DNA of 40,705 nucleotides from Candidatus Sulfotelmatobacter sp. (GTDB lineage Bacteria > Acidobacteriota > Terriglobia > Terriglobales > Acidobacteriaceae): NCBI GenBank assembly GCA_017883385.1, contig JADGNQ010000036.1, forward strand, positions 1 to 40,705, read 5' to 3'. Positions 3,911 through 36,454 of this stretch are shown one piece after another (position 1 is the stretch's first letter; each line of letters opens with the position of its first letter). Made by a program: the position numbers and the translations under genes. Under the pieces are notes generated by a model that was not told where the DNA came from, did no database searches, and was given only the letters and a program-made list of their open reading frames with translations.

Positions 3911-3950
3911 CCCCAACCTTTTTGCAAAGAACGCGAAAAAAGGTGGGCAC
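3911..3950. repeat. AAAGAAC-loop hairpin, copy 1
   Basis: Stem TTTTTGC (3919-3925) / GCGAAAAA with loop AAAGAAC (3926-3932), flanked by CCCCAACC and AGGTGGGCAC. It lies just downstream of hxlR. Member of the six-copy family described in the findings. Confidence 0.75.
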
Positions 3951-4008
3951 GCGAGATCTGTGCTGGTCGAATTCTCCGACCAGGATTGAGGTTCAGTAGA
4001 ATCAAAAT

Positions 4009-4082
4009 CCCCACCCCTTCGGCTGTGCTCGGGGCAGGCTCTGTCTCGTCAAAGGGCGGCGAGACAAGGGATAGGGCAACCC
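4009..4082. repeat. AAAGAAC-loop hairpin, copy 2 (composite)
   Basis: The left module CCCCACCCCTTCGGC ... CGGGGCAGGCT (4010-4040) is followed by a hairpin GTCTCGTC / GGCGAGAC with loop AAAGGGC (4051-4057), ending GGGCAACCC. It is the only copy whose loop differs from AAAGAAC. It lies between the convergent ends of hxlR and the regulator gene at 4093. Confidence 0.7.
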
Positions 4083-4092
4083 GGCATTGGGT

Positions 4093-6432
4093 TTAGCGAA
4101 GTTTCGCGTATTCTGCTTGGGCTTGCTGGAGGATGGGGATCCCGGGGTCGGCGGTGTTCCAAAGCGTTAGGAAATCCTGGTAGGCGGATATCGCTTTCGT
4201 GGGGTCTCCCGCTTGCGCATACGCCCGCCCCAGTTGCAGCCGCGCCAGAGCGCCGATGGGATCGCTGACCACGATGCCGGGGTGATCGAGAATCTTCTGG
4301 AATTCGGCGGCGGCTTCAGGTGCCCGATGCGCTGCCAGATAGGCCTCGCCGCGCACATAGATGGGATAGAGCGCTCCGAAAAGCGCGTCGACGCTGCTGC
4401 GCGGAACACCCAGTTCGTGCGGAACAGCGACTTGCAGCGTTTCAAGAGCAATTGAAGCGTCGCCGCGGTGCAATGCGAGAAGTGCGCGAAGGGTGGGCAC
4501 GTAGCTGGACCTGACCGACGTGTCATCCGGGAAGCGCTTTTCCAGATCATCCGTGAGTGCTTGAGCCTGGGAAAGATCGCCAGAGAGGGCTAGCGCAAAG
4601 GCAGCGCCATATTCCGCCTCACGATCCTTTGAGAGCTGGAGTGCGACGGTGGCCCTCTTTCTTGCTTCAGACGCGTTCCCGAATAAAGCCTCGCGCACGG
4701 CGGTTCCGGCTTCCCAAAGGCTCGCCCGCTCTCGTTGCCCGACCTGCTGGGCCTGATCCACTGCGCGATGGGACATGCTCCTGGCCTGGCGCAGGTGGCC
4801 GGAGTATGCCAGGGCGAAGGCCTCTTTGTTGAAGATCCAGCTTTCCCCTCCGGATCTGCCCTGAGCCTGGGCAGCGGCGCGATCCATTCCCGCCTGATCG
4901 CCTCTCAGGAAGGCGAGGTCGTAGTCCAGCATGAGAAACTCGTCGATTTCGAGCCCACGTGCGATGCCGCGCCGCAGGGTGCGCTCGGCATCGTCGAGGC
5001 GACCGAGGTAGGACTGGTTGACAGCAAGACTGTAATACCCGAAGGCAAAATCCGGGTCGAGTGCGATCGTTTTCCGGGCTTCAGTGATCGCGCTTTCGTA
5101 TTGTCCCCTGGTCTTGTGAACCATCCCCGCCAACATAAGATGGGCCCTGGGCTCGCGAGGAAAAGTTTGCGCCCAGGCCTCACAGGTCTGCTGCGCTTGC
5201 TCCAGGTTGCCAGTCACCAGCGTCTGGTAGGCGGCAGTGATAAAGAACCTTTCCTGATCGCTGGCGCGATCGCGAAGGCGCCAGGCTTTGCCGATGTTTT
5301 CGGCGGAGAGATCAGATTCGTCGAGATCGGCGTAGATACGTCCCAGCGACGCGTGCGCCATGGCGAAGTTGGGGTCGATTTCCGCAGCGCGTCGGAAGAA
5401 CGGGAGAGCCGCCATGGCGCCACTTGAGGTGAGAACCCTCCATCCCGTGCTGTAAGCTTGCAGCGCTTCGAGGGACGAGGTTGTGGCTTCGGCAAGCGGA
5501 GTGTCGTGCTGTTCGACGGTGGAGATCGATTCACCGACTCGGGTCCGGAACTTGCTGGCCATTTGAGTGAGTGCGTGCAGCACATCCTCTTTCTTTCCCG
5601 CCTGCACCTGCTCATCGTCCAGGGTGTCTCCGCTGCGGCAGTTCCTGGCGCGTAATGCTAGGACGTATTGGCTGCCGAGGGGCGCGATGGAGCCTTCGAG
5701 GATGACCGCGCTTCCGGTCCGCTCGCAGATCTCGCGAGCGATTTCGGGAGTGAGGCGAGTGTCCGCTGAGCGGCCCATCAGGCGGAGCGTCTGCTCGATG
5801 CGCTGGTCGGAAATGAGGCTCAGGAAAGGCGACTGCGCCAGTTGAACAGCCATTCCCTGACGCAATGTTCCATCAAAAACGGAGTCGCCGGTGGAGTTGG
5901 TGAAGTCGGCCAGCACGACCGTATCTTTGGCAGTGAGAATTGGCGCGCGGGGGAATACCAATGGAAACGTCCCGGCAGCGACCGCAACCAGGACGACCAC
6001 CGCGACTGCGACCCACGCCCACGGTTTCGTCTCCCTGACCTGAACCTGCACCTTGGTGCGGTTCGCCGCAACAATATCAAGCTCCCGCCCAGGCACCAGG
6101 TGCACATTCTCAGCCAACCGATACCCACGGCCGGGCACAGTCAGAATGTAACGGTGATCCTGCGGGCTCTCGCCCAGCGCCTTGCGCAGCATGAAGATGT
6201 TGCGGCTCAGGTTGGCCTCTTCCACAAACGTGTCGGGCCAGACTTTTTTCATCAGGTCGTCTTTGGTGACGACTTCCTTGTTGTGGCGGACCAGGACCAA
6301 AAGAATCTGAAACGTCTTCGGCGTCAGGGGGACAATTTCGCCGCCACGTAACAGAGTTTCCTTCTGCGCGTCGACACGAAAAGGGCCAAATTCGTAGAGT
6401 TGCTCAGCCGCATCAACCTCATTCGCGCCCAT
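4093..6432 (-). CDS. Winged-helix / transmembrane / TPR regulator
   Basis: A 779-residue membrane protein in three parts. Residues 13-110 are an OmpR/PhoB-type winged helix as in ToxR and CadC, with the typical LTPKTFQILLVLVRH, LMKKVWPDTFVEEANLSRNI and YILTVPGRGYRL blocks. Residues 138-160 form one membrane helix. The rest lies outside the membrane. It has a TolB/adenylate-cyclase-associated-like domain at about 168-300 (DTVVLADFTNSTGDSVFDG) and then tetratricopeptide repeats to the end, for example DPNFAMAHASLGRIYADL and DPDFAFGYYSLAVNQSYLG. This architecture is very common in Acidobacteriota; a ToxR-like role, sensing outside and binding DNA inside, is inferred. It is divergent from the 89-residue gene at 6661. 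No phosphoacceptor domain is present. Confidence 0.88.
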   Translation of the reverse strand: MGANEVDAAEQLYEFGPFRVDAQKETLLRGGEIVPLTPKTFQILLVLVRHNKEVVTKDDLMKKVWPDTFVEEANLSRNIFMLRKALGESPQDHRYILTVPGRGYRLAENVHLVPGRELDIVAANRTKVQVQVRETKPWAWVAVAVVVLVAVAAGTFPLVFPRAPILTAKDTVVLADFTNSTGDSVFDGTLRQGMAVQLAQSPFLSLISDQRIEQTLRLMGRSADTRLTPEIAREICERTGSAVILEGSIAPLGSQYVLALRARNCRSGDTLDDEQVQAGKKEDVLHALTQMASKFRTRVGESISTVEQHDTPLAEATTSSLEALQAYSTGWRVLTSSGAMAALPFFRRAAEIDPNFAMAHASLGRIYADLDESDLSAENIGKAWRLRDRASDQERFFITAAYQTLVTGNLEQAQQTCEAWAQTFPREPRAHLMLAGMVHKTRGQYESAITEARKTIALDPDFAFGYYSLAVNQSYLGRLDDAERTLRRGIARGLEIDEFLMLDYDLAFLRGDQAGMDRAAAQAQGRSGGESWIFNKEAFALAYSGHLRQARSMSHRAVDQAQQVGQRERASLWEAGTAVREALFGNASEARKRATVALQLSKDREAEYGAAFALALSGDLSQAQALTDDLEKRFPDDTSVRSSYVPTLRALLALHRGDASIALETLQVAVPHELGVPRSSVDALFGALYPIYVRGEAYLAAHRAPEAAAEFQKILDHPGIVVSDPIGALARLQLGRAYAQAGDPTKAISAYQDFLTLWNTADPGIPILQQAQAEYAKLR

Positions 6433-6660
6433 CGGTCGTTCCTCATTCCCATAGCAGCGGAGCGAATTCTAGCACGGTTGCGGGGTTTTTCCCGCGCCTG
6501 CCAGTGCTTCGCGCACTCTCGCAAGCCGCGCGTCTTCAACCGCTTACGAGCCTGCGAGAAATTATCGGAAGTTTTCAGAAGCCTCGCAAAGACTTATTCC
6601 TCCCGGCGCTGGCAAGCTTGGGCTCGTTTAGCACGTGAGCCCACCCGGAGGACAGGTTCG

Positions 6661-6930
6661 ATGGCGAAGGAAACCAAGATCACGATCGAAACCGACTCTC
6701 TGTTAATCCTACGCGGTCGCAATTCGCTGCGGACATGGTGTCCGGCATGTACGGCCGAGTCAGAGATGATCGCGCTGGAGAGCGTCGGAGTGATCTCGAA
6801 CCTTGACCGCCCTGCTTTGGAAGCCTGGCTCAACTCAGGGGATCTGCATCGGTCGCTAGCCGCCGATGGCTCGTCGCTGATTTGCCTGAATTCCCTGCTG
6901 GCACGCGTGCAGAACAAGAAGGTCAGCTAA
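6661..6930 (+). CDS. Small protein with a CPAC motif, unknown function
   Basis: An 89-residue protein starting at an ATG 8 bases after GGAGGA. The first third is a short beta-rich stretch (KITIETDSLLILRGRNSL) followed by TWCPACTAESEMI, a CxxC motif near residues 34-37. The C-terminal half holds SNLDRPALEAWLNSGDLH, which resembles a small helical DNA-binding or excisionase-like segment. I recall similar small proteins as uncharacterised in Acidobacteriota, often next to exported proteins. It is 62 bases upstream of the HAF-repeat gene on the same strand and divergent from the TPR regulator, so it may be a small accessory regulator. A single CxxC pair is not enough for a zinc ribbon unless the protein dimerises. 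Function unassigned. Confidence 0.75.
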   Translation: MAKETKITIETDSLLILRGRNSLRTWCPACTAESEMIALESVGVISNLDRPALEAWLNSGDLHRSLAADGSSLICLNSLLARVQNKKVS

Positions 6931-6992
6931 GCGCCGCTCGACGCGGGTGGCGAAAGAGATCGCGAAACGAACGAAACGAATAAGGAGACGAT

Positions 6993-8285
6993 ATGAAAAC
7001 CAGATTGCTACGCACTTCACTGCTCGGATTGCTGGCTGTTGCGGCGGCTCAACTGGCCACCGCACAATCAGCAACTCCGGGAACTGTTCGCTACACCGTT
7101 ACCGACCTGGGCACGCTGGGAGGTCCCGGAACCAACAGCTCAGCCTTTGATAATAACAATGCAGGATGGGTCGCCGGCTCCGGCAACCTGACTCCCGATG
7201 GGCCGCAACACGCATTCGTTTGGTATGGCCGAGGTCCGTTGATCGATACTGGGACTCTGGGCGGACCCAACAGCGAGGCCGATGGCCCCAACCTTTGGGG
7301 ACAGGCGCCGGTTCTCTCGGAAACGGCCAAGCTCGATCCCAACGGGGAGGACTTCTGTAGTCTCGGCAATCACATGCAATGCCTCGGGGCGATATGGAAG
7401 AATCGAAAACTCACCGCGCTTCCAACTCTATCTGGAGGCGGTAACGCCGAAGTACTTGGCATCAACGATCTCGGCCAGATCGTCGGGTTTTCCGAGACGG
7501 GCGTCGCGGACTCCACTTGCAAATCTGCGATGCCGTCTCAATTGTTCCGCTACCAGGCCGCGATCTGGGAACCGAGCGGCAAGGTCCGGGAATTGCGTCC
7601 CCTTCACGGTGACACCGTGGGATTCGCCTTCGGCATCAACGACGAAGGCCAGGCCGTCGGCACTTCGGGTCTGTGCTCCAACACGGTGCTTCCCCTTCTC
7701 CAGCCGCACGGAGTACACGCCCTGCGGTGGGAAAGAGATGGAACGCCCCGTGACCTGGGCTCGCTCGCGGGAGGCGTTTCCAACATCGCCAACAGCATTA
7801 ACAATGCCGGACAGGTGGCTGGCACGTCGCAATTCACCGATGGCACCGTTCACTCCTTCTTCTGGACGAGAAACAAGGGTATGCGGGACCTGGGTACCTT
7901 GCCCGGGGCCATGTTGACGGTCGCGCCGTGCTGCAACACCCTGAATGATCGAGGCCAGGTGGTTGGCTTCTGGTTCGACAGCGACTTCAACCCAAGCGCG
8001 TTCCTCTGCCAAAACAATGTCATCACGGACCTCAACGATCTCATTCCCCAAAACTCGCCCTGGCAGCTACTCTTTGCCGAGGCGATCAACGACGCCGGAG
8101 AGATCGTCGGCCAGGGCTTGATCAATGGCGAACTGCACGCATTCCTCGCGACCCCAACGATCGGGAACGACGCTGGATCCGAGGTCGGAAGGCCGAAGGC
8201 CATCCTTACGGAGGTCGAGCGCCAACGGTTGCGGCAACAACTGCGTTCCAGCCGGCTGGGAGCATGGTTGGCTCGACCGAAATAA
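6993..8285 (+). CDS. HAF-repeat exported protein
   Basis: A 430-residue secreted protein. A Sec signal peptide (MKTRLLRTSLLGLLAVAAAQ, cleavage near ATAQ) is followed by at least six HAF-type repeats. Each has a strand of the form D-LGTLGG, then GINDLGQIVG or SINNAGQVAG, then a closing HAFVW/HSFFW. Examples are TVTDLGTLGGPGTNSSAF near residue 35, LGSLAGGVSNIANSINNAGQ near 255 and LGTLPGAMLTVAP near 300. The repeats likely build a beta-propeller or beta-helix; the family has no known enzymatic role. The last ~40 residues are charged, without a sorting signal I recognise. AAGGAG is placed ideally for the ATG. It probably shares a transcript with the 89-residue gene 62 bases upstream. Confidence 0.85.
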   Translation: MKTRLLRTSLLGLLAVAAAQLATAQSATPGTVRYTVTDLGTLGGPGTNSSAFDNNNAGWVAGSGNLTPDGPQHAFVWYGRGPLIDTGTLGGPNSEADGPNLWGQAPVLSETAKLDPNGEDFCSLGNHMQCLGAIWKNRKLTALPTLSGGGNAEVLGINDLGQIVGFSETGVADSTCKSAMPSQLFRYQAAIWEPSGKVRELRPLHGDTVGFAFGINDEGQAVGTSGLCSNTVLPLLQPHGVHALRWERDGTPRDLGSLAGGVSNIANSINNAGQVAGTSQFTDGTVHSFFWTRNKGMRDLGTLPGAMLTVAPCCNTLNDRGQVVGFWFDSDFNPSAFLCQNNVITDLNDLIPQNSPWQLLFAEAINDAGEIVGQGLINGELHAFLATPTIGNDAGSEVGRPKAILTEVERQRLRQQLRSSRLGAWLARPK

Positions 8286-8350
8286 CTGGCAAAGGGGATC
8301 GCAAGGTTCCCGGCTCGCCAAGGAGTCAAGGTCTATCGCCATGGGTGGGG

Positions 8351-8371
8351 GAGCAGGGAAGTTTCCTGCTC
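8351..8371. other. Hairpin in the pilT upstream gap
   Basis: GAGCAGG faces CCTGCTC (7 bp perfect, extendable by three weaker pairs) in the 233-base gap between the HAF gene and pilT. No T-run follows. The remainder of the gap (8372-8518) has a second weak fold around GTCATCTT / AAGGTGAC (8441-8460). It could end the HAF transcript or shape the pilT leader. Confidence 0.35.
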
Positions 8372-8518
8372 TCTCTTCGCTTCCCCCGCCCGCCGAACTT
8401 AAGGCTGTGTCCCGTCGCCAGACAGGGGCCATTACCTAGGTCATCTTGGGGAAGGTGACGAATCGGGCGATCATGGTAAAGAACCTCGTGCCAGAAAGCT
8501 TCGACGGGAAAACTCCGC

Positions 8519-9643: not shown

Positions 9644-9665
9644 GATGCGGCTGGGTTTTCGGCCG

Positions 9666-9693
9666 TAGATGTTTTGGTCTTAGATGTTTGGTC
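9666..9693. repeat. Short direct repeat TAGATGTTT(T)GGTC
   Basis: TAGATGTTTTGGTC (9666-9679) is followed almost directly by TAGATGTTTGGTC (9681-9693). This is a two-unit direct repeat just after pilT. Confidence 0.6.
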
Positions 9694-9732
9694 CAGAGAT
9701 TTGCTTTTCTGTCTTTGCTTTGCCTCCATGAT

Positions 9733-9758
9733 GGGCGCGCGAGAGCGCGCCCTTTTTT
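9733..9758 (+). terminator. Terminator after pilT
   Basis: A perfect 8-bp stem GGGCGCGC / GCGCGCCC closed by a GAGA tetraloop and followed by six T. It lies 90 bases after the pilT stop. Confidence 0.92.
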
Positions 9759-9785
9759 CGTGCCTGCAAAATCAAGAAGGGCGGG

Positions 9786-9841
9786 AACCACGAAGGACAC
9801 CCTTCGACTCCGCTCAGGGCCGGCTCCGGTTCACGAAAGGG
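9786..9841. repeat. Composite fold-back repeat before recX
   Basis: AACCACGAAGGACAC (9786-9800), the start of the family seen at 36320 and 40540, runs directly into CCCTTCGACTCCGCTCAGGG, the core of the TTCGACT family. The fusion suggests one element inserted into another or a deletion between two. Confidence 0.55.
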
Positions 9842-9918
9842 AAATACGGGTTGCGTTCCCCCCACTTTTTCTTCTTTCTCTCGGCTTGCGGAACTGATTT
9901 GCGCTATCGTTAGCGTGT

Positions 9919-10458: not shown

Positions 10459-10534
10459 GCCGGAGGGACTACGAGCCGCAAGAGAATCCAGGCGTCGGGA
10501 TTCCGCATCTCAAGAGAATAGGCGCGGCGCGGAT

Positions 10535-10563
10535 TTGCGTCGCATCGTCAGGTATTGCATACT
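10535..10563 (+). promoter_or_regulatory. Possible promoter of the lysine-rich protein gene
   Basis: TTGCGT (10535-10540) and CATACT (10558-10563) with a 17-base spacer, about 37 bases before the start codon. Each hexamer matches the consensus at about four of six positions. Confidence 0.4.
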
Positions 10564-10599
10564 CGGAGACAATCCCGGCTACAACTTGAGGAGGAATGT

Positions 10600-11055: not shown

Positions 11056-11071
11056 CAGGAAGACGTCAACC

Positions 11072-11131: not shown

Positions 11132-11189
11132 CTTTTGCGCGCGGCCACGGGCTGAGCAAAGTGTGGTTTTCATTTAGAATTGACCATTC

Positions 11190-14100
11190 ATGCCGACCGG
11201 TTCTGAGATTCGCCGCAAATTCCTGGACTTCTTTGTGCAGAAGGGGCACAAGGAAGTGCACTCGTCGTCGCTCGTCCCGGCTAATGACCCGACGCTGCTG
11301 TTCACCAATGCGGGGATGAATCAGTTCAAGGACGTTTTTCTTGGACTCGAGAAACGCGACTACTCTCGGGCTACGACTTCGCAGAAGTGCGTGCGCGCTG
11401 GGGGAAAGCATAACGATCTCGAAAATGTGGGATTCACCAACCGGCATCACACGTTTTTTGAGATGCTGGGGAATTTTTCGTTTGGGGATTACTTCAAGAA
11501 GGATGCGATTGCTTACGCGTGGGAGCTGATTACTTCGCCGGAGTGGTTTGGGATTGCGAAGGAGAAGTTGTATGTGACGATCTTCAAGGGCGAGGCAGGG
11601 GTTGATCGTGATGCCGAGGCTTATGACTTGTGGGCCGCACAGGGCGTTGCAAAAGATCGCATCTACGAGATGGGCCTGAAAGACAACTTCTGGCAAATGG
11701 GCGACACCGGGCCTTGCGGGCCGTGCAGCGAGATTCATTACGACATGGGCGTGGCGGCGTCGGATCAGGGGCACACGGACTGCGCGTTTGGCTGCGATTG
11801 CGGGCGGTATGTGGAGATTTGGAATCTGGTGTTCATGCAGTTTGACCGCGATGCTTCGGGCAAGCTGACGCCGTTGCCCAAGCCGTCGATTGATACGGGG
11901 ATGGGGCTGGAGCGGGTGGCGTCGGTGCTGCAGGGAGTGATTTCCAACTACGAAACAGATCTGTTCACGCCGCTAATTCGAAAGGCGGCGGAGTTGACGG
12001 GCGGCGGCAAAGCCGAGCTTCGCTCGGCCGGACAGCCGGGGGCGGCTGTCCCCACACAAGCAGGGGCAGTGGGAAGCAGCTATAAGGCTGCGGCTTCGTT
12101 GCGCGTGATTGCGGATCACTCGCGGGCAGCGACATTCCTGATTTCCGATGGCGTGCTGCCGGCGAATGAAGGGCGTGGGTATGTGCTGCGCAAGATCATC
12201 CGGCGCGCTATTACGCATGGACGGCTGCTGGGACAGACGAAGCCATTTCTGTATGAAACGGTCTTTGCGGTTCGCGATCTGATGCGGGATGGGTATCCGG
12301 AATTGAATGAGACGGCGGATCGAGTATCCAAGGCGGTGCGAGCAGAAGAGACGAGGTTCGCGCATACCCTCGATCTCGGCTTGAAGAAGCTAGAGGAAGC
12401 CTTCGAGACAGTTAACCAGATTCAACAGAATACTCGGCTGGCCTTGATTGATGACATCGCTCGCTCCAAGCCCGATGCGAATGCCACCGTGATGGAGGCG
12501 CTACGAAGGTCAGACAATATCCAGGATCCGGAGTCCTTCTGGAGGACCGTGGATCAGTTACTTGGGCCTCAGCTTGGTAAGGCGGCAAAGAATCGTTGGC
12601 AGGAACTCGGAACGAGTCCGACACTCCCCGGTGCAGAAGCTTTCAAGCTGTACGACACATTCGGCATGCCGTTGGACTTCATTCAAGACGCGGCGCGGGA
12701 TCAAGGAATTTCATTCGATCAGTCCGGCTTCGATGCCGCGATGGAGGAGCAGAAGTCGCGCGCGCGCGCTTCGTGGAAAGGTGCGGCTAAACAAACCGCG
12801 AATCCCGCATACCAGCAGCTTCCGAAATCAGAGTTTGAGGGTTACCGGCAGACTCGCTCTGATGGCTGCGAGGTGCTGGCGATTATTCACGACGGGAAGG
12901 GCGTGCGGGAGCTTCGTGCTGGCGAAGAGGGCGAGGTCATTCTTGATCACACGCCGTTCTACGCCGAATCCGGCGGGCAGGTTGGGGACCGCGGATGGCT
13001 TTATTCGGACGATCACAACACCGTGGTCGCCGAGGTGAAGGGGTGCTATTCCCCGATTCAGGGGGTGCGGGCGCATCAGGTCGTCGTGAAAGCGGGAACG
13101 TCAAGAATCCCACCCTCTTTCGCAAAGAACGCGAAAGAAGGGTGCGGCACCCCCGTGATTCGCGTGGGCGATCGCGTCGACGCCGTGGTTAACACCGACG
13201 TTCGGCTCGCTACCATGCGGAATCACACGGCTACGCACCTGCTGCATGCGGGGCTGCGCGAGGTGTTGGGGAAGCATGTGAAGCAGGCGGGGTCGCTGGT
13301 GGCGCCGGGGCATCTGCGGTTTGATTTTTCGCATTTCACTGCCGTGGAAGACGAAGAACTGCAGGATATTGAGGACATCATCAACAAGGAAGTGCTGCGC
13401 AACCGGAAGGTCGAGACCATTGCCGATGTGCCGATCGATGTGGCCGTCAACGAATACCACGCGATGGCGCTGTTTGGGGAGAAGTATGGAGACAAAGTTC
13501 GCGTGGTTAAGATCGGCGATTTCTCTACCGAGCTTTGCGGCGGGACACACACAGGTGCTACCGGTGAGATTGGGCTGATCAAGATTCTGAAGGAAGGCAG
13601 TGTGTCGTCTGGGGTGCGGCGCGTGGAGGCGGTGACGGGTGAGGGATCGCTGGCGCATTTCCGGGCAGATCACGAACTGGAGAACGTGGTGTCGAGTTTC
13701 GTGTCACCCACTTCTCGCGCAGGCGAAGATCCCCACTTCTCGCGCAAAGAACGCGCGAGAAATGGGGCACCCTCATCTGATTCACTGGCCGACAGTGGAC
13801 CTTCTTACTCTCCGGCGGCGGCGTTGAAAGCGGAACTCGACAAGAAGGATGCGGAGATCAAGCGGCTTACGCGGGAGCTGGACTCGGTGCGGATGAAGTC
13901 GGCTTCGTCTTCGACCGCGAACATCGGCGACCAGATCAAGGAAGTGAAGGGCGTGAAAGTTCTGGCGCATCGCGTGGACAATCTGGAGCGGGCGCAGCTG
14001 CGGACGCTGGTTGATCAATTGCGCGACAAGATTGGCTCAGGAGTTGTGATTCTGGGGTCGGCGTCGAATGGCAACGTTTCCCTGATTGTGGGGGTCACCA

Positions 14101-14273
14101 AAGACCTGACGGGGCGCGTGCAGGCGGGGAAGGTGATTGGTCCGGTGGCGCAGAAAGTTGGAGGCAAAGGTGGAGGGCGTCCTGACCTGGCAGAGGCCGG
14201 GGGCAAGGATGCTTCGGCCCTCGATGCCGCGCTGGACGAGGCTTATGGCGTGGTCGAGGGACTGCTCGCATGA
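11190..14273 (+). CDS. alaS: Alanyl-tRNA synthetase with inserted segments
   Basis: Charges tRNA-Ala with alanine and edits Ser/Gly mischarging in the cytoplasm. The catalytic core runs from [15 protein letters not shown] through [16 protein letters not shown] and KHNDLENVG. The editing domain has the zinc motif HTATH (679-683) and CGGTH (783-787), then a coiled coil and a C-Ala domain with [14 protein letters not shown]. At 1027 residues it exceeds the usual ~870-900. Extra pieces lie at about 272-299, 408-478, 637-655 and 836-873. The first, third and fourth are encoded by dispersed palindromic repeats inserted in frame (12028-12056, 13109-13150, 13714-13772). All key motifs are intact, so the enzyme is probably active. 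The stop overlaps the next start (ATGA). Confidence 0.97.
12028..12056. repeat. GGACAGCC repeat inside alaS
   Basis: GGACAGCCGGGGGCGGCTGTCC-type hairpin followed by CCCACAC, nearly identical to the intergenic copy at 1094. Read in frame it adds [12 protein letters not shown] between the catalytic-core block and the conserved SLRVIADH block of AlaRS. Confidence 0.75.
13109..13150. repeat. AAAGAAC-loop hairpin inside alaS, copy 3
   Basis: Stem CTTTCGC (13117-13123) / GCGAAAG (13131-13137) with loop AAAGAAC (13124-13130), flanked by CCCACCCT and AAGGGTGCGGCAC. It is translated as SFAKNAKEG within AlaRS, between the beta-barrel and the editing domain. Confidence 0.85.
13714..13772. repeat. AAAGAAC-loop hairpin inside alaS, copy 4
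   Basis: Stem TTCTCGCGC (13737-13745) / GCGCGAGAA (13753-13761) with loop AAAGAAC (13746-13752), flanked by CCCCAC and TGGGGCACCC. A truncated copy of the left arm (CACCCACTTCTCGCGC) directly precedes it. It is translated as [11 protein letters not shown], a different reading frame from copy 3. Confidence 0.85.
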
Positions 14274-17267: not shown

Positions 17268-17427
17268 TGCAAGATTGGGGCACGAACGAACGATTGTCAG
17301 GGGAAGAATCCTGTGTTACGGTAGGTAAAATTTCACGCCTTCGTTAATTACATTCCTAGGGCTCCCGAGTGTTGTGGTTTGCGCGAATGCGTGTATCCGA
17401 GGCAGCGCCACTATGAAGGAAATTATG

Positions 17428-17889
17428 ATGGATTCCGTTCCCACCGGTGAATCCGCCGAGAAGGAAAACTTCGCGAACCGCAAACTGATCCGTCCCACCC
17501 TGCAGCGGGTGGAGAATCACGGCAACAATCACACTTCTGCCCCAATGCAGCTGCAAGAACGGCGGGAGCGGCCGGAGAGGCACGACCGCGCAGAGCGTGG
17601 TGACCGCGGCGATCGGGGTGATCGTGCAATGGGGGGAAGTGGCGGCGGTGGCGGCCGGAAGGTTACTCCTCCGGAACAGACGAACGCCGAGAATTTTTAT
17701 TATCAGAAGCAGATGCAATCGCGGACGCCGATGGTCATCGTGCTGCGCGATGGCGAGGAAGTACACGGCATCATCGAGTGGTACGACAAAACCTGCATCA
17801 AGGTGACGCGGGAAAACGGCGAGCCGAACCTGATGATCTACAAGCCGGCGATCAAGTACATGTATAAAGAAGGGGAAAACCAGCGGTAG
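17428..17889 (+). CDS. hfq: Hfq-like RNA chaperone with N-terminal extension
   Basis: A 153-residue Sm-fold protein. The Hfq core lies at the C-terminus, residues about 84-150. Sm1 is [21 protein letters not shown] and Sm2 is [14 protein letters not shown]. Hfq rings pair small RNAs with mRNAs. Two features are unusual. The first ~80 residues form an extra disordered segment, Arg/Asp/Glu-rich ([10 protein letters not shown]) then Gly-rich; classical Hfq carries its tail at the C-terminus. The YKHA signature reads YKPA, losing the conserved His. The start at 17428 has AAGGA seven bases upstream; ATGs at 17425 and 17413 are alternatives. A longer gap with no clear promoter precedes it, and a composite repeat follows. 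Confidence 0.85.
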
Positions 17890-17893
17890 CACT

Positions 17894-17961
17894 GCCCCAC
17901 CCTTCGGCTTCGCTCAGGGCAGGCTTTCTCGCGCAAAGAACGCGCGAGAAATGGGGCACCC
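17894..17961. repeat. AAAGAAC-loop hairpin, copy 5 (composite)
   Basis: The left module GCCCCACCCTTCGGC ... CAGGGCAGGC (17894-17924) is followed by stem TTCTCGCGC / GCGCGAGAA with loop AAAGAAC (17935-17941) and the constant tail ATGGGGCACCC. It lies between hfq and the GH127 gene. Confidence 0.85.
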
Positions 17962-19915: not shown

Positions 19916-19935
19916 CCCGGCACTTCCGTGCCGGG
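19916..19935. repeat. CCCGGCAC hairpin repeat
   Basis: CCCGGCAC / GTGCCGGG with a TTCC loop, a perfect 8-bp stem in the 247-base gap between the convergent GH127 and dcd genes. The rest of the gap (19936-20081) holds CGCTTCGCGG-type small palindromes and AAGGCTGACGGCTGATAGCT, but no gene. Confidence 0.6.
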
Positions 19936-20081
19936 CTATCACATGCCGCCGCTTCGCGGCTGGAGTTCGGCGGGCTCGCCTCGCCTTGCTCGCGGAAGAT
20001 CTAGTTCTCACGCAGCTACTTCCAACCCCACTTCGAGACCCCAGGCGCGAACTGAAGGCTGACGGCTGATAGCTAGCACTT

Positions 20082-20633
20082 TCAGAGTTTCGGCAGCACG
20101 ATTCCCTGCTGCGACTGGTATTTGCCTTTGCGGTCGGCGTAGCTGGTCTCGCACATTTCGTCGGACTCGAAGAAGAGGATCTGGCACAGGCCTTCGTTGG
20201 CGTAGATGCGCGCCGGTAACGGCGTCGTGTTGGAAATTTCGAGAGTGACGAAGCCTTCCCATTCGGGCTCGAATGGCGTGACGTTAACGATGATGCCGCA
20301 GCGGGCGTAGGTGCTCTTGCCGACGCAGATGGTCAGCACGCTGCGTGGAATCTTGAAGTATTCAACCGAGCGCGCCAGGGCAAACGAATTGGGAGGAATG
20401 AGGCAGATGTCGGTTTGCATGGTAACGAAAGACTTCTCGTCGAAGTGCTTGGGGTCGACGATGGTGGAGTTAACATTGGTGAAAATTTTGAACTCGTCGG
20501 CCACGCGCAAGTCATAGCCGTAGGAGGACAGGCCATAAGAGATCACGCCTTCGCGCACCTGCTTCTCGGAGAATGGGTTAATCATTTCGTGTTCCCGGGA
20601 CATCTTGCGGATCCAGCGGTCACTCTTCAGCAT
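20082..20633 (-). CDS. dcd: dCTP deaminase
   Basis: A 183-residue cytoplasmic enzyme converting dCTP to dUTP and ammonia, feeding dTMP synthesis. Family blocks in order: [13 protein letters not shown] (36-48), the [18 protein letters not shown] stretch, [19 protein letters not shown], and the catalytic glutamate E132 in [19 protein letters not shown]. The C-terminal [10 protein letters not shown] is the usual nucleotide-closing tail. The length is normal. Some homologues also have dUTPase activity; the sequence does not decide between the two. The start ATG at 20633 begins [11 protein letters not shown], as in many family members. The gene is divergent from the HU gene, with repeat DNA in between. 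Confidence 0.94.
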
Positions 20634-20648
20634 GGAACTCCCTTTAGG

Positions 20649-20760
20649 AATTGAGTCAGTGAATCATTTGTGATTGAGTCATTGAAAGGCAATTGAGCAC
20701 TGGCCGAACTCGCGCTGCGAGAGAAATCACTCAATGACCCGATGGCTGAATCACACAATC
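20649..20760. repeat. ATTGAGTCATTG fold-back repeat
   Basis: Multiple variants of TTGAGTCA/TCATTGA and, facing them, TCACTCAATGAC ... CTGAATCAC, spanning most of the dcd/HU gap. GTCATTGA (20678 on) pairs with TCAATGAC (20731 on). A low-complexity fold-back related in style to those at 28892 and 38541. Confidence 0.55.
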
Positions 20761-20803
20761 TCGTTGGCTGGGTGCCTGTCAGTTTACGGGATTGATGCTC
20801 CCG

Positions 20804-28990: not shown

Positions 28991-28992
28991 CC

Positions 28993-29226: not shown

Positions 29227-29373
29227 TGGGACTCTCCCTTTACCAACAACATTGCAGTCGGATGAATGCCGAGCGTCGAACCATGCATTCCGCAGAACAG
29301 GGCCAACAGAACATAACCGGCTTTCAGGCTTGTCCCGCCTCTTCAAATGATACCGCGAAAACTATGGGTGTGC

Positions 29374-31022: not shown

Positions 31023-31040
31023 AGGGGCCGTATTCTGTGG

Positions 31041-32885
31041 CTAAGATCCTGCAACTGCTTTGGGCGCATCTGCATTCGCGAACTGCAATTCGTAGAGTCG
31101 CCGGTACGTACCTAACCTCGTCATCAACTCCTCGTGCGCGCCGATGTCGGCGATGGCGCCATTCTCGATGACCACAATACGGTCTGCGCGGCGCACAGTC
31201 GAAAGGCGGTGGGCGATTACGAACACGGTGCGACCAGTCATCAGGTTGTGCAAGGCGGTCTGCACCAGCGCCTCGGACTCACTGTCGAGTGCCGATGTGG
31301 CCTCATCCAGAATCAGGATAGGCGCATTCTTCAGCAGAGCCCTGGCTATGGCAAGCCGCTGACGCTCACCTCCAGAAAGCCGCACACCGCGCTCTCCGAT
31401 CACCGTATCGTAGCCGAACGGAAGAGCCCGGATGAAGTCGTGTGCCAAAGCGGCACGGGCCGCAGCCTCGACGTCCTTCTGCGGAACATTTGGCTGGCCG
31501 TAGGCGATATTGTTGCGCACCGTGTCGTTGAACAGCACCGTCTCCTGGGTGACGATGCCGACCTGTGCCCGTAGTGACGCAAGCGTCACATCGCGCACGT
31601 CGAGGCCGTCGATGAGCAAGCGGCCGGCGGTCACATCAAAGAAGCGCGGGATCAGGTGTACGAGCGTGCTTTTGCCCGCGCCGCTGGAGCCGACAATGGC
31701 CAATACTTCACCGCGCCGGACTTCGAGATCGATGTGGCGCAGAACATCGTGCCCCTCTTCGCCTACGTTGGAATAGGCGAAACTGACGCGCTCAAGGCGA
31801 ACACTTCCGGAGAACCTGCGTAATGTTTTGGCGCGCGGCTTTTCGCGCACGTCATCTTCGAGATCCATGAACTTGAAGATCTCCGATGAGGCGCCCAGCG
31901 CTTGCTGAAAATTGTTGTAAAAAAGCGCGAACTTGCGAACCGGGTTGTAGAGGCTGAAGACGGCGGTAATGAAAGCCACGAACACTCCGGGAGTCATCTG
32001 ATTGTGCGCAATCCGGTCACGGCCGAGCAGGAGCAGAAGAGCCACGCCGACCATTCCAAAAACATCCATTAGCGGCGAACTGATGGCGGCCGCCGCGACC
32101 GAGCGGAGATTGGCGCGGAAAAGGCGGCGCGCGGCTTTCCGGAACCTGGAGATCTCCCAGTTCTCTGTGTTAAAGGCCTTCACGATACGGTTGCCCGTGA
32201 TGGTTTCGTGCAGAATATTCTGGATTTCCGCCAGCTTATCCTGGCCGTGCCGCGTGGTGTGGCGCACGCGAGAACCGATCTTGCGCGACGAGAAGACAAT
32301 CACGGGGACGAACAAGAGCAACACCCAGGCAAGTTTCCCGCCCAGGATTACCACCACGGCAGCTACTGCGAGGAAGGTGAAGAATTGCTGCAACAACTCC
32401 GAGAGCACCGTCGACATCGCATACTGAACCCGCTCGATGTCATTGATGATGGTGGAGAGTAAGGTTCCGGTGGCGTGCTGTGAAAAAAAAGCGGCCGAGC
32501 GGCGCAGCAGCGCGGTGTAAAGATCGTCGCGGAGATCGGTGATCATGCCAAAGCCCGCGTGATTTACCAGATACGTGCCGGAGTAGTCGCAGATACCCTT
32601 GAGCAGGGTGGATGCAATCAGGGCAAACGCCACGATGTTCCACGCATTGGTGAAATGCGACGGCACAAACTGCTGCAGGTAGACTGCATGGTGCGTACCG
32701 GGAATGACGAAGAGCTGGATCTCCTTCGACCCGGTTGCGGGGCTCAGAACTCGATCAAATACGGGACGGACCAGCAGATACTTGAATGCGTCAAGCGCCC
32801 CGACCGCGGCCATGAGCAGAACGGAACACAGTATTTGCCACCAGTACGGGAGAGCATATCGGATGAGCCGCATCAGTTGCCGCAT
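31041..32885 (-). CDS. msbA: MsbA-like lipid A ABC exporter
   Basis: A 614-residue half-transporter that flips lipid A-core or a similar lipid across the inner membrane. The six-helix membrane domain spans about residues 1-320 (RYALPYWWQILCSVLLMAAVG; later NNILHET-type coupling region QNILHETITGNRIVKAFN). The nucleotide-binding domain has Walker A GSSGAGKST near 398, signature LSGGERQRLAIARALLKNAP near 502 and Walker B ILDEATSALD. The start at 32885 follows GGGAG; a GTG 27 bases upstream is less likely. Position beside gmk/rpoZ is typical for Acidobacteriota. Drug-export ABC proteins share this layout, so substrate assignment rests on family similarity. Confidence 0.88.
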   Translation of the reverse strand: MRQLMRLIRYALPYWWQILCSVLLMAAVGALDAFKYLLVRPVFDRVLSPATGSKEIQLFVIPGTHHAVYLQQFVPSHFTNAWNIVAFALIASTLLKGICDYSGTYLVNHAGFGMITDLRDDLYTALLRRSAAFFSQHATGTLLSTIINDIERVQYAMSTVLSELLQQFFTFLAVAAVVVILGGKLAWVLLLFVPVIVFSSRKIGSRVRHTTRHGQDKLAEIQNILHETITGNRIVKAFNTENWEISRFRKAARRLFRANLRSVAAAAISSPLMDVFGMVGVALLLLLGRDRIAHNQMTPGVFVAFITAVFSLYNPVRKFALFYNNFQQALGASSEIFKFMDLEDDVREKPRAKTLRRFSGSVRLERVSFAYSNVGEEGHDVLRHIDLEVRRGEVLAIVGSSGAGKSTLVHLIPRFFDVTAGRLLIDGLDVRDVTLASLRAQVGIVTQETVLFNDTVRNNIAYGQPNVPQKDVEAAARAALAHDFIRALPFGYDTVIGERGVRLSGGERQRLAIARALLKNAPILILDEATSALDSESEALVQTALHNLMTGRTVFVIAHRLSTVRRADRIVVIENGAIADIGAHEELMTRLGTYRRLYELQFANADAPKAVAGS

Positions 32886-32968
32886 GAGGCTCCCGCGCGG
32901 GGCAGGCCACAATCGCTTGCTGCCGGTCGAATAGGCATGAGATGCAAGGACTTATTCTACTTGAGTCG

Positions 32969-33005
32969 CGCGCCGGGAAGATGACGTTTCAGCTTCCCGG
33001 GCGCG
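32969..33005 (-). promoter_or_regulatory. Hairpin and possible -10 upstream of msbA
   Basis: CGCGCCGGGAAG faces CTTCCCGGGCGCG with a 12-base loop and one bulged base. On the minus strand a TAGAAT -10 box lies just downstream at 32959-32954, without a clear -35. The hairpin may end transcripts coming from rapZ, and the box may start the msbA run. Confidence 0.4.
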
Positions 33006-33083
33006 ACATTCCCGTTCTAGAATTCCCGCCCGCGGGTGGTTGGACGGACAACAGATCGATGGAGTTCATCTTTCCTTCCACAT

Positions 33084-33215
33084 TCACTTGCAGGGAAGTG
33101 AACCGCCAGACAGAAGCAGGGTCAAGAAGCCGAGCGGGATCTTCCACCGAGGATGGTTTTCGAGCCAACTCCTCTGCATCGGCTGGGAGACGAGCGGATA
33201 GGGCGGCTTGGACAT
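33084..33215 (-). pseudogene. Possible truncated membrane-protein ORF after rapZ
   Basis: A 43-codon open frame (MSKPPYPLVSQPMQRSWLEN, then HPRWKIPLGFLTLLL...) begins 10 bases after the rapZ stop. A Pro-rich start, basic WK motif and short hydrophobic run resemble the N-terminus of small acidobacterial membrane proteins (Coa1-like group, from memory). It then stops abruptly; sequence after the stop shows no continued frame of note. No ribosome binding site is visible. It could be a decayed gene or a chance frame. The rest of the 32886-33225 gap holds only the hairpin at 32969. Confidence 0.3.
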
Positions 33216-33225
33216 AGGAGGGCGA

Positions 33226-34161
33226 CTAACCGGGGCTGTCGCGGTGCACGACCTTTACGCGATAGCCAGCGCGGCGAAGATGCTTGCCTACATCTTCGGC
33301 GATCATGACGGAACGGTGTTGGCCTCCGGTGCAGCCGAACGCAATCGTCAGGTAGCTTTTGCCCTCGTGAATGTAGTGGGGAAGCAAGTAGATAAGCAGG
33401 TCGGAAATGCGCGAGATGAATTCTTTCGTTTGCGGGAAGGACCGGATGTATTTCGCCACGCGCGGATCGCGCCCCGTGAGCGGCCGGAACTCGGGCAAGA
33501 AATGCGGGTTGGGCAGGAAGCGTACGTCGAAGACGAGGTCGGCGTCCTCGGGGACACCCTGGCGAAATCCAAAACTGACGCAAGAGACCAGGATGCTCTT
33601 CTCGGAAGCCTGTTCCTGAAAACGCTCGGTGATGTGGGCGCGAAGTTCGTGAACATTGAACTTTGATGTATCGATGACGAAATCGGCGAACGCACGGATG
33701 GCGCCCAGGTGGCGGCGCTCAGTTTTGAGTGCCGATCTTACGGGCGAGTCTGTGCCCAGGGGATGAGGCCGGCGCGTCTCGCTGAAGCGCCGCACCAGAA
33801 CTGCGTCGGAGGCCTCGAGGAAGACCACCTTAGTCGGAATCATGCGCCGGACCGACTTCAGAATGCCCGGCAACTTCTCCAGCTTGGAGCCTTCGCGCAC
33901 GTCGACAACTAGAGCGGTGCGGCGAATCTCACTCGACTGCATCGCCAGCTCGGCAAATTGCGGGATGAGTTCTACCGGAAGGTTGTCGACGCAGTAGTAG
34001 CCGAGGTCCTCGAAGGCCTTCAGCACGGAAGCCTTCCCCGAACCACTCATGCCGGTGATGATGACCAGTTCGGGCGAGTGCAGCCCGGGGGTGCGGGCCG
34101 AGCTTTTGGCAACGCGCTTCGTGCGCTTCTGTGTCTTTCCAGAGGAGTGGCGGGGCCCCAT
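33226..34161 (-). CDS. rapZ: RapZ-type RNase adapter
   Basis: A 311-residue protein of the RapZ/YvcJ family. In E. coli RapZ guides RNase E to the small RNA GlmZ and so tunes glucosamine-6-phosphate synthesis; other bacteria use it in different ways. Walker A is GMSGSGKA (37-44), followed by EDLGYYCVDNLPVELIPQFA. The C-terminal domain carries FLPNPHFLPEFRPLTGRD and the GCTGGQHRSVMIAE block, the conserved RNA/metabolite-binding part. The first 30 residues are basic and not conserved; the start is weakly marked, without a clear ribosome binding site. In many genomes rapZ follows rpoN-hpf directly; here four accessory genes lie between hpf (37867) and rapZ. Confidence 0.94.
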   Translation of the reverse strand: MGPRHSSGKTQKRTKRVAKSSARTPGLHSPELVIITGMSGSGKASVLKAFEDLGYYCVDNLPVELIPQFAELAMQSSEIRRTALVVDVREGSKLEKLPGILKSVRRMIPTKVVFLEASDAVLVRRFSETRRPHPLGTDSPVRSALKTERRHLGAIRAFADFVIDTSKFNVHELRAHITERFQEQASEKSILVSCVSFGFRQGVPEDADLVFDVRFLPNPHFLPEFRPLTGRDPRVAKYIRSFPQTKEFISRISDLLIYLLPHYIHEGKSYLTIAFGCTGGQHRSVMIAEDVGKHLRRAGYRVKVVHRDSPG

Positions 34162-34321
34162 GAACTGGATAGTAGCATCGAAGGGCCCGCTCTCGCTTTC
34201 AGTTCCTGATTGCCAATTGAGATACCGCCGGCTTGATCCGGGCTCAGGGGTAGCAACATCGGGTCGAGAAGCGTAAATGCAGATTGTCTCCAGCCTGCAC
34301 GGGCAGGTAAGCTATGGCGTC

Positions 34322-35278
34322 ATGAAAAAGTTCGAAGATCTTACCGAGCGCGAAGTGCTGGCCCTGGCCATCGCCCTGGAAGAAGAAGATGAACGTGTGT
34401 ACTCGGATTTCGCCGAAGGGCTGCGGCAGGATTATCCCGCAACCGCCTCGATGTTTGACGGCATGCGGGAAGAAGAATCAGGACACCGTCGCCGCTTGCT
34501 CGAACTCTTCCAGAAGAAATTCGGTGAGCACATCCCACTGATCCGGCGGCAGGATGTGCGGGGGTTCGTGGAGCGCCCGGCATTGTGGCTGGTGCGTCCT
34601 CTGCGGATTGAAGCCGTGCGTAAAGAAGCGTCGACCATGGAGGTTGAGACGCGGCGCTTTTACGAGAAGGCGTCGGCCCGCACGCAGGATGCGAGCATCC
34701 GGCAACTGCTGGACGACCTGGCCACCGAAGAGCGCGAACACGAAGAGCGCGCCCAGGAACTCGACAAGCAAAGACTGCCGGACAATGTGAAGGCCGACGA
34801 AGAGGTCGCGCAACGGCGGTTGTTCGTGCTGCAGATTGTGCAGCCTGGGCTGGCGGGACTGATGGATGGGTCGGTATCGACGCTCGCGCCGGTGTTCGCC
34901 GCCGCCTTCGCTACCAAGAATAGTCACGAGGCATTTCTCGTGGGGTTGGCTGCATCGGCCGGTGCGGGCATCAGCATGGGATTCGCCGAGGCGCTCTCGG
35001 ATGACGGCAGTCTGACCGGACGGGGACATCCATGGGTACGAGGCTTGATCTGCGGGGCCATGACAGCCCTGGGAGGCATTGGGCATACGCTGCCCTTTCT
35101 GCTGCGCGACTTCCGCATGGCGCTTTGGGCGGCGGGAATTGTCGTGCTGGCGGAACTGGGCGTGATCACCTGGATTCGAAAGCGTTACATGGACACACCT
35201 TGGTTCTCTGCCGCTCTGCAAGTCGGACTCGGCGGAGTGCTGGTGTTCATCACGGGCGTGCTGATTGGGAGTTCGTAG
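34322..35278 (+). CDS. mbfA: Rubrerythrin-VIT1 fusion (MbfA-like iron exporter)
   Basis: A 318-residue membrane protein of two fused parts. Residues ~1-150 form a ferritin-like/rubrerythrin domain with di-iron ligand motifs: [39 protein letters not shown] and [12 protein letters not shown]. The second part is VIT1-like with five hydrophobic segments ([42 protein letters not shown]). This layout is that of MbfA of Agrobacterium and Bradyrhizobium, a membrane ferritin that exports iron or manganese and protects against peroxide. The start at 34322 matches the family N-terminus [14 protein letters not shown]; an in-frame ATG 45 bases upstream is an alternative. It is convergent with the creatininase-family gene, separated by a palindrome. 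Confidence 0.9.
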
Positions 35279-35287
35279 GGTGCAAAC

Positions 35288-35311
35288 AGAGACGTAGCAA
35301 GCTACGTCTCT
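35288..35311. terminator. Perfect palindromic hairpin between convergent genes
   Basis: AGAGACGTAGC / GCTACGTCTCT, an 11-bp perfect stem with an AA loop, lies 9 bases after the mbfA stop. Its last two bases overlap the stop codon of the minus-strand creatininase-family gene. It is placed as a bidirectional terminator, though no T-run follows. It may also be a member of a dispersed repeat. Confidence 0.6.
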
Positions 35312-36221
35312 ACGGTTGCGTGTCAAGCGGGTGTGTGCTCTTTTCGTAAAACTCATTCTGCAGCTTGAGGCTGACGTCGTCGCCTTTCACCGCGCGGATC
35401 GCCTTCACGACCGATTCAATCCACCACTTCATCTGGAATTCGCCAAGTTCCTTGGTCGCTACTGAGCCGTCGCCGGAATAGTGGAAGGGGAAACGCGTGT
35501 ACCACCAGATTCCGGTGTAGACGTCTTCGGGAAGCTTCTGGCGCGCCTGGTCGGCGCCTGATTCGTTAGTGGCGCGGTCAAGATGGACCGTGTCGGGGCG
35601 GGAGATCATCATCTTGGACGTTTCGCTCTCGCCGGCGTGCATGTCGATCTTGGTCTTCTTTGGCGGACCTCCTTTGTCCGGGGTGCGTTCGTCGAAGACG
35701 TAGACGACGTAGTCATGTGGCTTGTCGAGCTGCGTCTGAGCAAAGTATGGGAGCAGGCTGTCGTTGCCGCCGTGGCCGTTGACGATCAGGACTTTCTTGC
35801 AGCCGTTGCGCGCCATTTCGTCGGTCGTCTCCTGCAGGAGCGCGAGTTGCAGGTTGCGGCTGTAGGCCACGGTGCCGGGTTCGTGGCGCGCCTCGGCGAT
35901 TTGGCCGAAGTAATACTCGGGGAAGACTACCGCATAGTCTTGCTCGGCGGCGTGCAGCGCGGAGTAGCGGACATCGAGAAGATCGGTGCCGATCGGCAAA
36001 TGCGGACCGTGCTTCTCCAGGATGCCGAATGGGAGCAGGCACGTCCCCTGCGAGCGGCGAATGCCTTCGCGAAAGTCTGAGGCCGTGAGTTCCTCCCAGT
36101 GCACGGAGAGCTTGGCCGGCGACGACGCTGCTTGCGCGCGGACGAAGTTGGGGCTGAGAACAATGGCCAGAACCAAGAATGCAAGAACGGAGGAACTCTT
36201 GCGATAGACACGAGTCATCAT
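35310..36221 (-). CDS. Exported creatininase-family hydrolase
   Basis: A 303-residue protein with an N-terminal signal peptide (VYRKSSSVLAFLVLAIVLSP, cleavage near VRAQA). The mature part is a creatininase/creatinine amidohydrolase-like domain, a metal-dependent amidase fold. Diagnostic blocks are GILEKHGPHLPIGTDLLDV, with the metal-binding E/H/D pattern, IVNGHGGNDSLL, and DMHAGESETSKMMI. Related enzymes act on creatinine, formamides or pyrroloquinoline precursors; export suggests a different, external substrate. GGGAG places the start at the first of two adjacent ATGs (36221). The open frame continues 231 bases upstream, through a hairpin repeat, and is not conserved. Substrate unknown. Confidence 0.85.
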   Translation of the reverse strand: MMTRVYRKSSSVLAFLVLAIVLSPNFVRAQAASSPAKLSVHWEELTASDFREGIRRSQGTCLLPFGILEKHGPHLPIGTDLLDVRYSALHAAEQDYAVVFPEYYFGQIAEARHEPGTVAYSRNLQLALLQETTDEMARNGCKKVLIVNGHGGNDSLLPYFAQTQLDKPHDYVVYVFDERTPDKGGPPKKTKIDMHAGESETSKMMISRPDTVHLDRATNESGADQARQKLPEDVYTGIWWYTRFPFHYSGDGSVATKELGEFQMKWWIESVVKAIRAVKGDDVSLKLQNEFYEKSTHPLDTQP

Positions 36222-36319
36222 GGCGAAGTCTCCCTCGGCGGCGAATTTTAGCACGAGAATGCCGCTATTGAAACGTATCAATACCACCGACAGCGGTCGA
36301 TCTCTGGCTGGAGAAACCG

Positions 36320-36376
36320 TGAACCACGAAGGACACGAAGGTACACGAAGGAAACTGCAAGGTAGATTCCTTCGTG
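36320..36376. repeat. ACCACGAAGGACACGAAG fold-back repeat
   Basis: GAACCACGAAGGACACGAAG followed by CACGAAGGAA (36344-36353) facing TTCCTTCGTG (36367-36376). The same family occurs at 40540-40594 and, truncated, at 9786. Confidence 0.7.
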
Positions 36377-36406
36377 ATAGTTCGTGCCTTTGCGCGAGGG
36401 TCAAAG

Positions 36407-36454
36407 TCCCCGCCCTGTCTCGCCAAAGAACGGCGAGACCAGGACGGGGCACCC
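36407..36454. repeat. AAAGAAC-loop hairpin, copy 6
   Basis: TCCCCGCCCT, stem GTCTCGCC (36417-36424) / GGCGAGAC (36432-36439) with loop AAAGAAC (36425-36431), then ACGGGGCACCC. It lies just after the 143-residue gene ends, upstream of the creatininase-family gene. Confidence 0.85.

Follow-up and report, generated by a model that had tools for sequence, protein, structure and literature searches.

Contig JADGNQ010000036.1 of Candidatus Sulfotelmatobacter sp. (contig C279 of a host assembly of 6.8 Mb in 446 contigs) was analysed over a stretch of 40,705 nucleotides, called the window below, which carries six copies of a short hairpin, partly between genes and partly within the gene alaS. An earlier interpretation of the window, the sequence-only reading, had placed six hairpins at these positions, and all six are present, each on the + strand. 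We assign them, with a probability of about 0.85, to REP-like elements (repetitive extragenic palindromes; REPs) of a Terriglobia RAYT (REP-associated tyrosine transposase, HUH Y1) system. Four observations carry this assignment, namely that the elements flank RAYT genes, that they do so in mirror orientation, that the two flanks of a locus share their stems, and that elements are present or absent at the same site between related species. The hairpins probably form a family of small mobile DNA elements in soil Acidobacteriota that is moved by a RAYT transposase.

The Six Hairpins of the Window

The copies and the gene that hosts two of them are the following:

3912..3952, + strand: copy 1, a degenerate element between an open reading frame (ORF) for an HxlR-type regulator (3513-3890) and the ORF 4093-6432
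4009..4082, + strand: copy 2, with a module inserted in its 5' arm (4017-4040), the tail GGGCAACCC, and TCAAAAT preceding it
13109..13152, + strand: copy 3, in frame and in sense direction inside alaS, 31.2 bits by the covariance model
13731..13772, + strand: copy 4, in frame inside alaS, stem TTCTCGCGC, 62.4 bits by the covariance model
17895..17961, + strand: copy 5, stem TTCTCGCGC, between the ORF 17374-17889 and an ORF called from 17951
36408..36454, + strand: copy 6, stem GTCTCGCC, preceded by GGTCAAAGT, 37.3 bits by the covariance model
11190..14273, + strand: alaS, host gene of copies 3 and 4 (TIGR00344, 894 bits, cut-off 457)

Apart from the degenerate copy 1 and the interrupted copy 2, the four others are good elements. 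The stem of copy 1 is imperfect, with TTTTTGC opposite GCGAAAAA and one extra G, and this copy scored 20.7 bits (E 0.16) by the covariance model, with folding z-scores of -1.15 on the + and -2.13 on the - strand. Copy 2 was undetected by the covariance model at E up to 1 and, taken whole, shows no folding advantage over shuffles (z -0.33 and -0.55). The loop reads AAAGAAC in five copies and AAAGGGC in one, in agreement with the sequence-only reading; the tail GGGGCACCC, which it had described as shared but varied in copies 1-3, is exact in three copies (13764, 17953, 36446).

Copy 5 carries, like copy 2, an inserted module in its 5' arm (17903-17925), and the two modules are approximately 24 nt long each. 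A second repeated module, approximately CTTCGGCTTCGCTCAGGGCAGGCT, occupies the same place in the 5' arm of several elements (4017-4040, 17903-17925, and the elements of loci L018 and L107); it resembles one repeat gone into another and is present in recN of L258 as well. Copy 6 lies upstream of a creatininase-type gene on the - strand (ORF 35310-36452), whose called GTG start falls within the element. Mechanical ORF calling thus takes an ATG or GTG supplied by the element as gene start (17951 on the +, 36452 on the - strand).

A Constant Clamp Around a Paired, Variable Stem

The outer clamp, searched as CCCCA N14-44 TGGGGCACCC, occurs at 72 places in the host genome and at 1 in the reversed control, and the clamp combined with AAAGAAC at 31 listed places (27 distinct; four of the 31 are one copy with a shifted start) and at none in the reversed control. 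Such a genome-wide pattern search had been proposed together with the claim that the loop is the constant part of the element, a claim that the result overturns: the outer clamp CCCCAC..ATGGGGCACCC and the tail are constant, the loop varies genome-wide, and the inner stems form discrete, still-paired subfamilies (in the host genome TTCTCGC, GTCTCGC, TTCTCGCGC, CCTAGCCGC, CCTAACGTCGC, CCTGTCGC and others). The loop is mostly AAA followed by three variable bases and C, and among 57 host copies with a symmetric 7-nt loop AAAGAAC (20) and AAAGGAC (16) are found, so that AAAGAAC is a common form. Per site and copy, the loop deviates more often than the inner stem for the host subfamilies TTCTCGC/GTCTCGC (0.088 vs 0.027) and TTCTCGCGC (0.143 vs 0.025) and for the subfamilies of genomes G340 (0.100 vs 0.025), G337 (0.243 vs 0.050) and G318 (0.243 vs 0.107); the host subfamily CCTAGCCGC with 7 copies is the exception (0.082 vs 0.087), and one further group in this comparison has only 3 copies.

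What is kept in the inner stem is the pairing and not the letters, as the sequence-only reading had recognized for compensating changes. In 54 unique host sequences, which represent 69 of the 72 copies (3 were left out), 401 of 473 inner cells form Watson-Crick pairs in register, compared to only 126, 147 and 182 when the arms are slid by -2, -1 or +1; the statement that the stems differ yet stay paired holds genome-wide, with copy 1 and its extra G pairing imperfectly. For 17 sequences from several genomes, hand-picked for equal length, 89.0% of cells pair vs 67.0% after shuffling, and the covariation amounts to 0.526 vs 0.149 shuffled and at most 0.115 slid. Both sides changed in 10 of 15 pairs; out of 500 shuffles, 109 reached the observed number of both-sided changes and 142 that of further pair types. 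The covariation check suggested by the sequence-only reading thus shows strong covariation of the paired arms. Neither stems changing without compensation nor a handful of recent duplicates was found: the genome-wide copies keep their pairing across many stem families, several of which are clearly recent amplifications.

The bases before CCCC most often read GTCAAAAT in 51 host copies, with frequencies of 0.57, 0.51, 0.63, 0.69, 0.86, 0.71, 0.61 and 0.47 along the motif, and no strong conservation was found 3' of CACCC in the same copies. The motif was considered as a target site and rejected; it is absent from the empty relatives at alaS site 1 (L106) and in uvrA (L241), for which reason it is likelier part of the unit (two cases, judged by eye; uvrA of L244 is ambiguous on this question). 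The unit would accordingly read 5'-(GTCAAAAT)-CCCC[A/G]C, variable inner stem, loop of approximately 7 nt and often AAARNRC, inner stem, [R]ATGGGGCACCC-3'.

The sixth pair is a conserved C.A mismatch in 105 of 144 unique sequences (C-G in 26, T-A in 11), which reads T.G on the complementary strand, and for this reason the complementary strand, with 5'-GGGTG before the hairpin, is probably the one that folds. DNA folding found the GGGTG strand more stable in all five elements compared, by 1.5 to 2.9 kcal/mol, and favoured in two of three other window copies. The folding strand would read 5'-GGGTG, hairpin, ATTTTGAC-3', with a short 5' foot at the hairpin base. The sequence-only reading had left the folded form as single-stranded DNA or RNA, and we judge single-stranded DNA to be the likelier of the two.

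Elements Flank One Group of RAYT Genes

The host genome contains five Y1_Tnp genes, two of which (L031 and L032) are RAYTs by the NCBIfam model NF047646 (94.7 and 106 bits, cut-off 80) and carry 2 and 4 elements, respectively, in approximately 3.3 kb each; at L032 the RAYT has one copy upstream, one within its reading frame and one downstream. The guess of a REP/RAYT-like element was therefore right in kind, and the search for a matching RAYT or HUH transposase leads to NF047646-type RAYT genes. Relatives of the L031 protein are found in 126 of 150 genomes of the family, the nearest named one, at 79% identity, in a Ca. Sulfotelmatobacter metagenome-assembled genome (MAG); NCBI's scheme places Ca. 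Sulfotelmatobacter in Ca. Korobacteraceae. Elements are present at 24 of 30 loci of L031 relatives, typically one on the minus strand before the gene and one on the plus strand behind it.

The arrangement was quantified at 80 RAYT loci, the best 80 of 143, taken from records named Ca. Sulfotelmatobacter, Acidobacteriaceae, Terriglobia, Granulicella and Ca. Korobacter and overlapping partly in genomes with the set of 30. Element hits occur at 56 of these loci; 96 of 124 hits lie within 200 bp of the gene match, and 88 of the 96 are in mirror orientation (minus upstream or plus downstream). An outward-facing element within 200 bp is present on at least one side at 51 loci and on both sides at 34. 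The density is 3.15 hits per kb within 200 bp, 0.14 at 200-700 bp and 0.13 at 700-1500 bp, thus approximately 24 times higher next to the RAYT than further out; as a control, 24 alaS loci spanning 100 kb were searched, and their 6 hits all fall within alaS itself. The two flanks of a RAYT share their stem type, as the upstream and downstream cores differ by a mean of 3.9 edits (33 of the 34 two-sided loci) compared to 10.1 after shuffling, with 8.5 as the lowest value of 1000 shuffles. The stem TTCTCGCGC of copy 4 also flanks both sides of the RAYT at L201, and at L204, from a Ca. Korobacter versatilis MAG, the element stands on both sides of the RAYT. Among 66 RAYT-flanking copies 53 end in GGGGCACCC and the other 13 in seven variants.

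A PDDEXK_5 gene adjoins both RAYTs of the host, in different arrangements (2138-2857 on the - strand at L031, 825-1295 on the + strand at L032). It was considered as a RAYT partner and rejected; the partnership is not general, because a sequence search found the gene at only 3 of 64 distinct RAYT/Y1 loci (65 were scanned, L131 being the same place as L031). Downstream of the Y1 gene of L064 three element-like hits follow each other at a regular spacing of 135 bp (2857-3160).

Distribution Among Acidobacteriota

Of 297 genomes drawn from the phylum, 90 contain a match. These include 27 of 31 genomes of the window's family, with 349 matches vs 5 in the control (counted by hand from the table), and 63 of 266 genomes outside it, never with more than 5 per genome; the outside matches that were inspected mostly do not pair, and many recur in similar form in several genomes, as expected of conserved coding sequence. 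With a slightly tighter pattern 56 of 80 genomes of the family match. Clamp and foot are kept across genera. Genome G347 has 42 Y1_Tnp matches, with neither a match to the element pattern nor to the RAYT protein.

Within the host genome the copies are unevenly spread. Covariance model hits (E up to 1) were found in 3 of 20 sample stretches of 15 kb, taken on contigs that mostly have a hit elsewhere, and one of the three (L073) is weak; 17 of the 20 have no hit, and L077 (G000:C164:10000-25000) holds a cluster of elements within 6 kb.

Copies Inside Genes

Most copies lie between genes, and a minority in frame, mainly in sense direction, where they encode a hydrophilic peptide without stop. Among 55 scored host copies only 3 count as coding on both sides by the script's cut-off (one of these, L100, was judged to precede the start of its gene), compared to 345 of 600 random positions. 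By ORF reading, which covered seven chosen copies plus alaS and the RAYT, 8 of the 55 lie in genes, 6 of the 8 in sense direction; the hosts are uvrA (models NF001503 and TIGR00630 below cut-off, since the locus covers the gene incompletely), recN, hpnE, a ParB-family gene, a gene resembling lytic transglycosylases (below cut-off), an ORF of 550 aa without an assigned name, alaS and the RAYT, and among the 80 RAYT loci 4 have an element inside the RAYT gene. For three consensus forms of the element the sense frames are stop-free and hydrophilic (grand average of hydropathy -0.58 to -2.13), and the antisense frames are more hydrophobic (-0.78 to 1.41), two of nine having a stop at the end.

Related species differ in whether a given site is filled. 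Of 13 genus rows, 3 carry an element at site 1 of alaS (copy 3) and 10 have this site empty; at site 2, with data for 12 rows, 7 hold a clear element, 2 have an odd filling and 3 are empty. Five of 14 genus rows carry the element in uvrA, 1 another palindromic insert and 8 none, and of 10 genomes 5 carry it in recN, 1 has an odd remnant and 4 have none. The elements in uvrA and recN differ in their stems between species, yet these pair; where one site holds different stems, either elements have inserted repeatedly into permissive linkers or the stem has been rewritten in place. The stem CTTGCGC at alaS site 2 is common to five species, whose loops differ, and L109 has T and A in both arms where the others have G and C. 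Fourfold sites in the alaS insert are equal in 78 of 100 comparisons vs 1223 of 2196 in the flanks (15 non-independent pairs of 6 sequences, so that the printed p-value overstates the difference). Conservation of synonymous sites in the insert would fit recent re-insertion too. Elsewhere in alaS, residues of approximately 405-476 (window 12402-12617) are highly variable in length within the genus, with inserts mostly of another kind.

The stem kept in alaS while the loop and the surrounding synonymous sites change, together with the pair swap in L109, raises the idea that hairpins are kept paired in place after insertion, even in essential genes, by template switching or by selection; we regard this as an unlikely, if conceivable, extension of the mobile-element interpretation.

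Weighing the Explanations

Several observations weigh against a RAYT-driven system. The window itself is without a RAYT, of the host's five Y1 genes three (L033-L035) lack an element, as do 28 of the 30 best Pfam-matching Y1 loci of the family (L036-L065). The element is therefore tied to one RAYT group only. Even within this group 24 of the 80 loci are without a hit; 14 of the 19 of these inspected by eye have an inverted hairpin pair with variant tails such as GGGGCATCC, GGGGCAGCC and GGCGCACCC, in 2 the flanking pair is partial and in 3 it is missing. None of the 66 RAYT-flanking copies has the canonical GTRG foot. For copy 2, folding slightly favours the + strand (-11.7 vs -11.2). A replication-strand bias, considered as a sign of lagging-strand transposition, was not found in G323, where 20 of 37 copies are co-oriented (counted by hand, with the origin set at dnaA and the terminus opposite; G337 has too few copies, and G241, G420 and G422 lay outside the count).

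If the hairpins instead acted mainly as RNA, as terminators, mRNA-stabilising or regulatory structures that spread by duplication and are kept for that use, their position mostly outside genes would be accounted for, and with GTCAAAAT as the commonest 5' flank a short T run often trails the hairpin on the other strand. No copy has an Rfam match at the gathering threshold, however, and a terminator scan (19991-20799 lay outside it) gave no site on the hairpins of the six copies, one site at 17885-17901 overlapping the first bases of copy 5. The arrangement of an intrinsic terminator, a G+C hairpin followed by a T run, was not found on the six hairpins; many copies have short TTTT tails, on the other strand. 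Moreover, coding genes hold copies, both orientations occur, and position ties the element strongly to a transposase gene, so that we consider a mainly RNA-based role improbable. As a separate RNA feature, Acido-Lenti-1 RNA (RF01687) is found in the window at 19916-19961 on the + strand (55.8 bits, gathering 37).

It is less probable still that the hairpins correspond to Rickettsia-type RPEs (Rickettsia palindromic elements), palindromes which live by in-frame insertion into proteins with an unknown mover: the in-frame copies in alaS, uvrA, recN, the parB-like gene and hpnE, the relatives' sites that are empty or differently filled, and the lack of stops in any of the three sense frames for the consensus forms examined all agree with it, but intragenic copies are a minority by script as well as by ORF reading, and a candidate mover, the RAYT, is visible. 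Short inverted-repeat units are typical of MITEs (miniature inverted-repeat transposable elements). That the hairpins are MITEs belonging to a DDE transposase, or repeats by chance, with the RAYT as a bystander, is nevertheless the least probable of the explanations, since mirror copies with shared stems stand at a fixed distance on both sides of the RAYT and 72 matches face 1 in the control; no search aimed at other transposase families was made.

Mechanism and Relation to Known Systems

For the RAYT-driven system we propose, by analogy with TnpA-REP as described by Corneloup et al. (2018; PMC6006769), that the RAYT would bind the single-stranded hairpin with its foot, cut and rejoin it, and so spread copies; cleavage by the RAYT rests on this analogy. 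The pairing may be what is read, in which case stem letters could drift in pairs and clamp and foot would stay. A dispersed palindrome (72 places), the flanking of a RAYT identified as such by a curated model, and a mostly extragenic position make the system a REPtron in the wide sense.

As in the REPtrons of that paper, short multi-copy hairpins with a single-stranded foot 5' of the hairpin flank a Y1 RAYT, and in-frame copies inside the RAYT itself, found here at L032 and in 4 of 80 loci in all, are described there for subclass 2.4. The foot is GGGTG in contrast to GT[AG]G in REPs, and because no GTRG foot was found the element is kept out of the GTAG REPs. REPs are called species-specific and unconserved between species in this source, whereas clamp and foot are common to many genera here and only the inner stem is lineage-specific. 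An acidobacterial Y1 gene with a hairpin is also described there for the class 3 Y1 of Solibacter, with approximately 600 copies and a CnGA foot.

The nearest published likeness comes from Di Nocera et al. (2013; PMC3733652), whose TIRYT group of Acidobacteria comprises RAYT-like genes of Terriglobus, Koribacter, Acidobacterium and Granulicella that are flanked by inverted repeats (TIRtrons), one of which is a genomic family; the comparison covered only the shared motif printed for this group, GGGGWSAS, which GGGGCACCC does not fit. In-frame insertion as seen here is described in the same paper for Rickettsia RPE-1, RPE-4 and RPE-6 and for intragenic REPs of Opitutus, Thauera and others; in both cases tRNA synthetases and genes of DNA repair serve as hosts (there uvrA, uvrB, recBCD and tRNA synthetases, here uvrA, recN and alaS), and same-site insertion in related species is reported for recB of Xanthomonas. 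The CGTC REPs, including RPE-4 and RPE-6, have no transposase tied to them according to this paper, whereas the elements described here end in GGGTG rather than CGTC and have a RAYT, and thus fall outside that superfamily. The RPE sequences are presumably unrelated, and the host here is an acidobacterium. No published description of this element was found in the open-licence literature, in which long result lists were covered in part.

Implications

If hairpins were kept paired in place, intrastrand template switching in replication, or lasting selection for folded DNA, would preserve a palindrome after its movement has ended, and the same-site elements of uvrA and recN with different paired stems would each represent one old insertion rewritten in place. 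The RAYT-driven system gives a hairpin family across many Terriglobia genera a named transposase and a shared foot, although REPs are usually called species-specific, and it ties RPE-like in-frame insertions into proteins to a visible mover. Because relatives offer filled and empty sites in alaS, uvrA and recN, it becomes possible to test in what way REPs insert and whether the host proteins tolerate the added peptides or make use of them.

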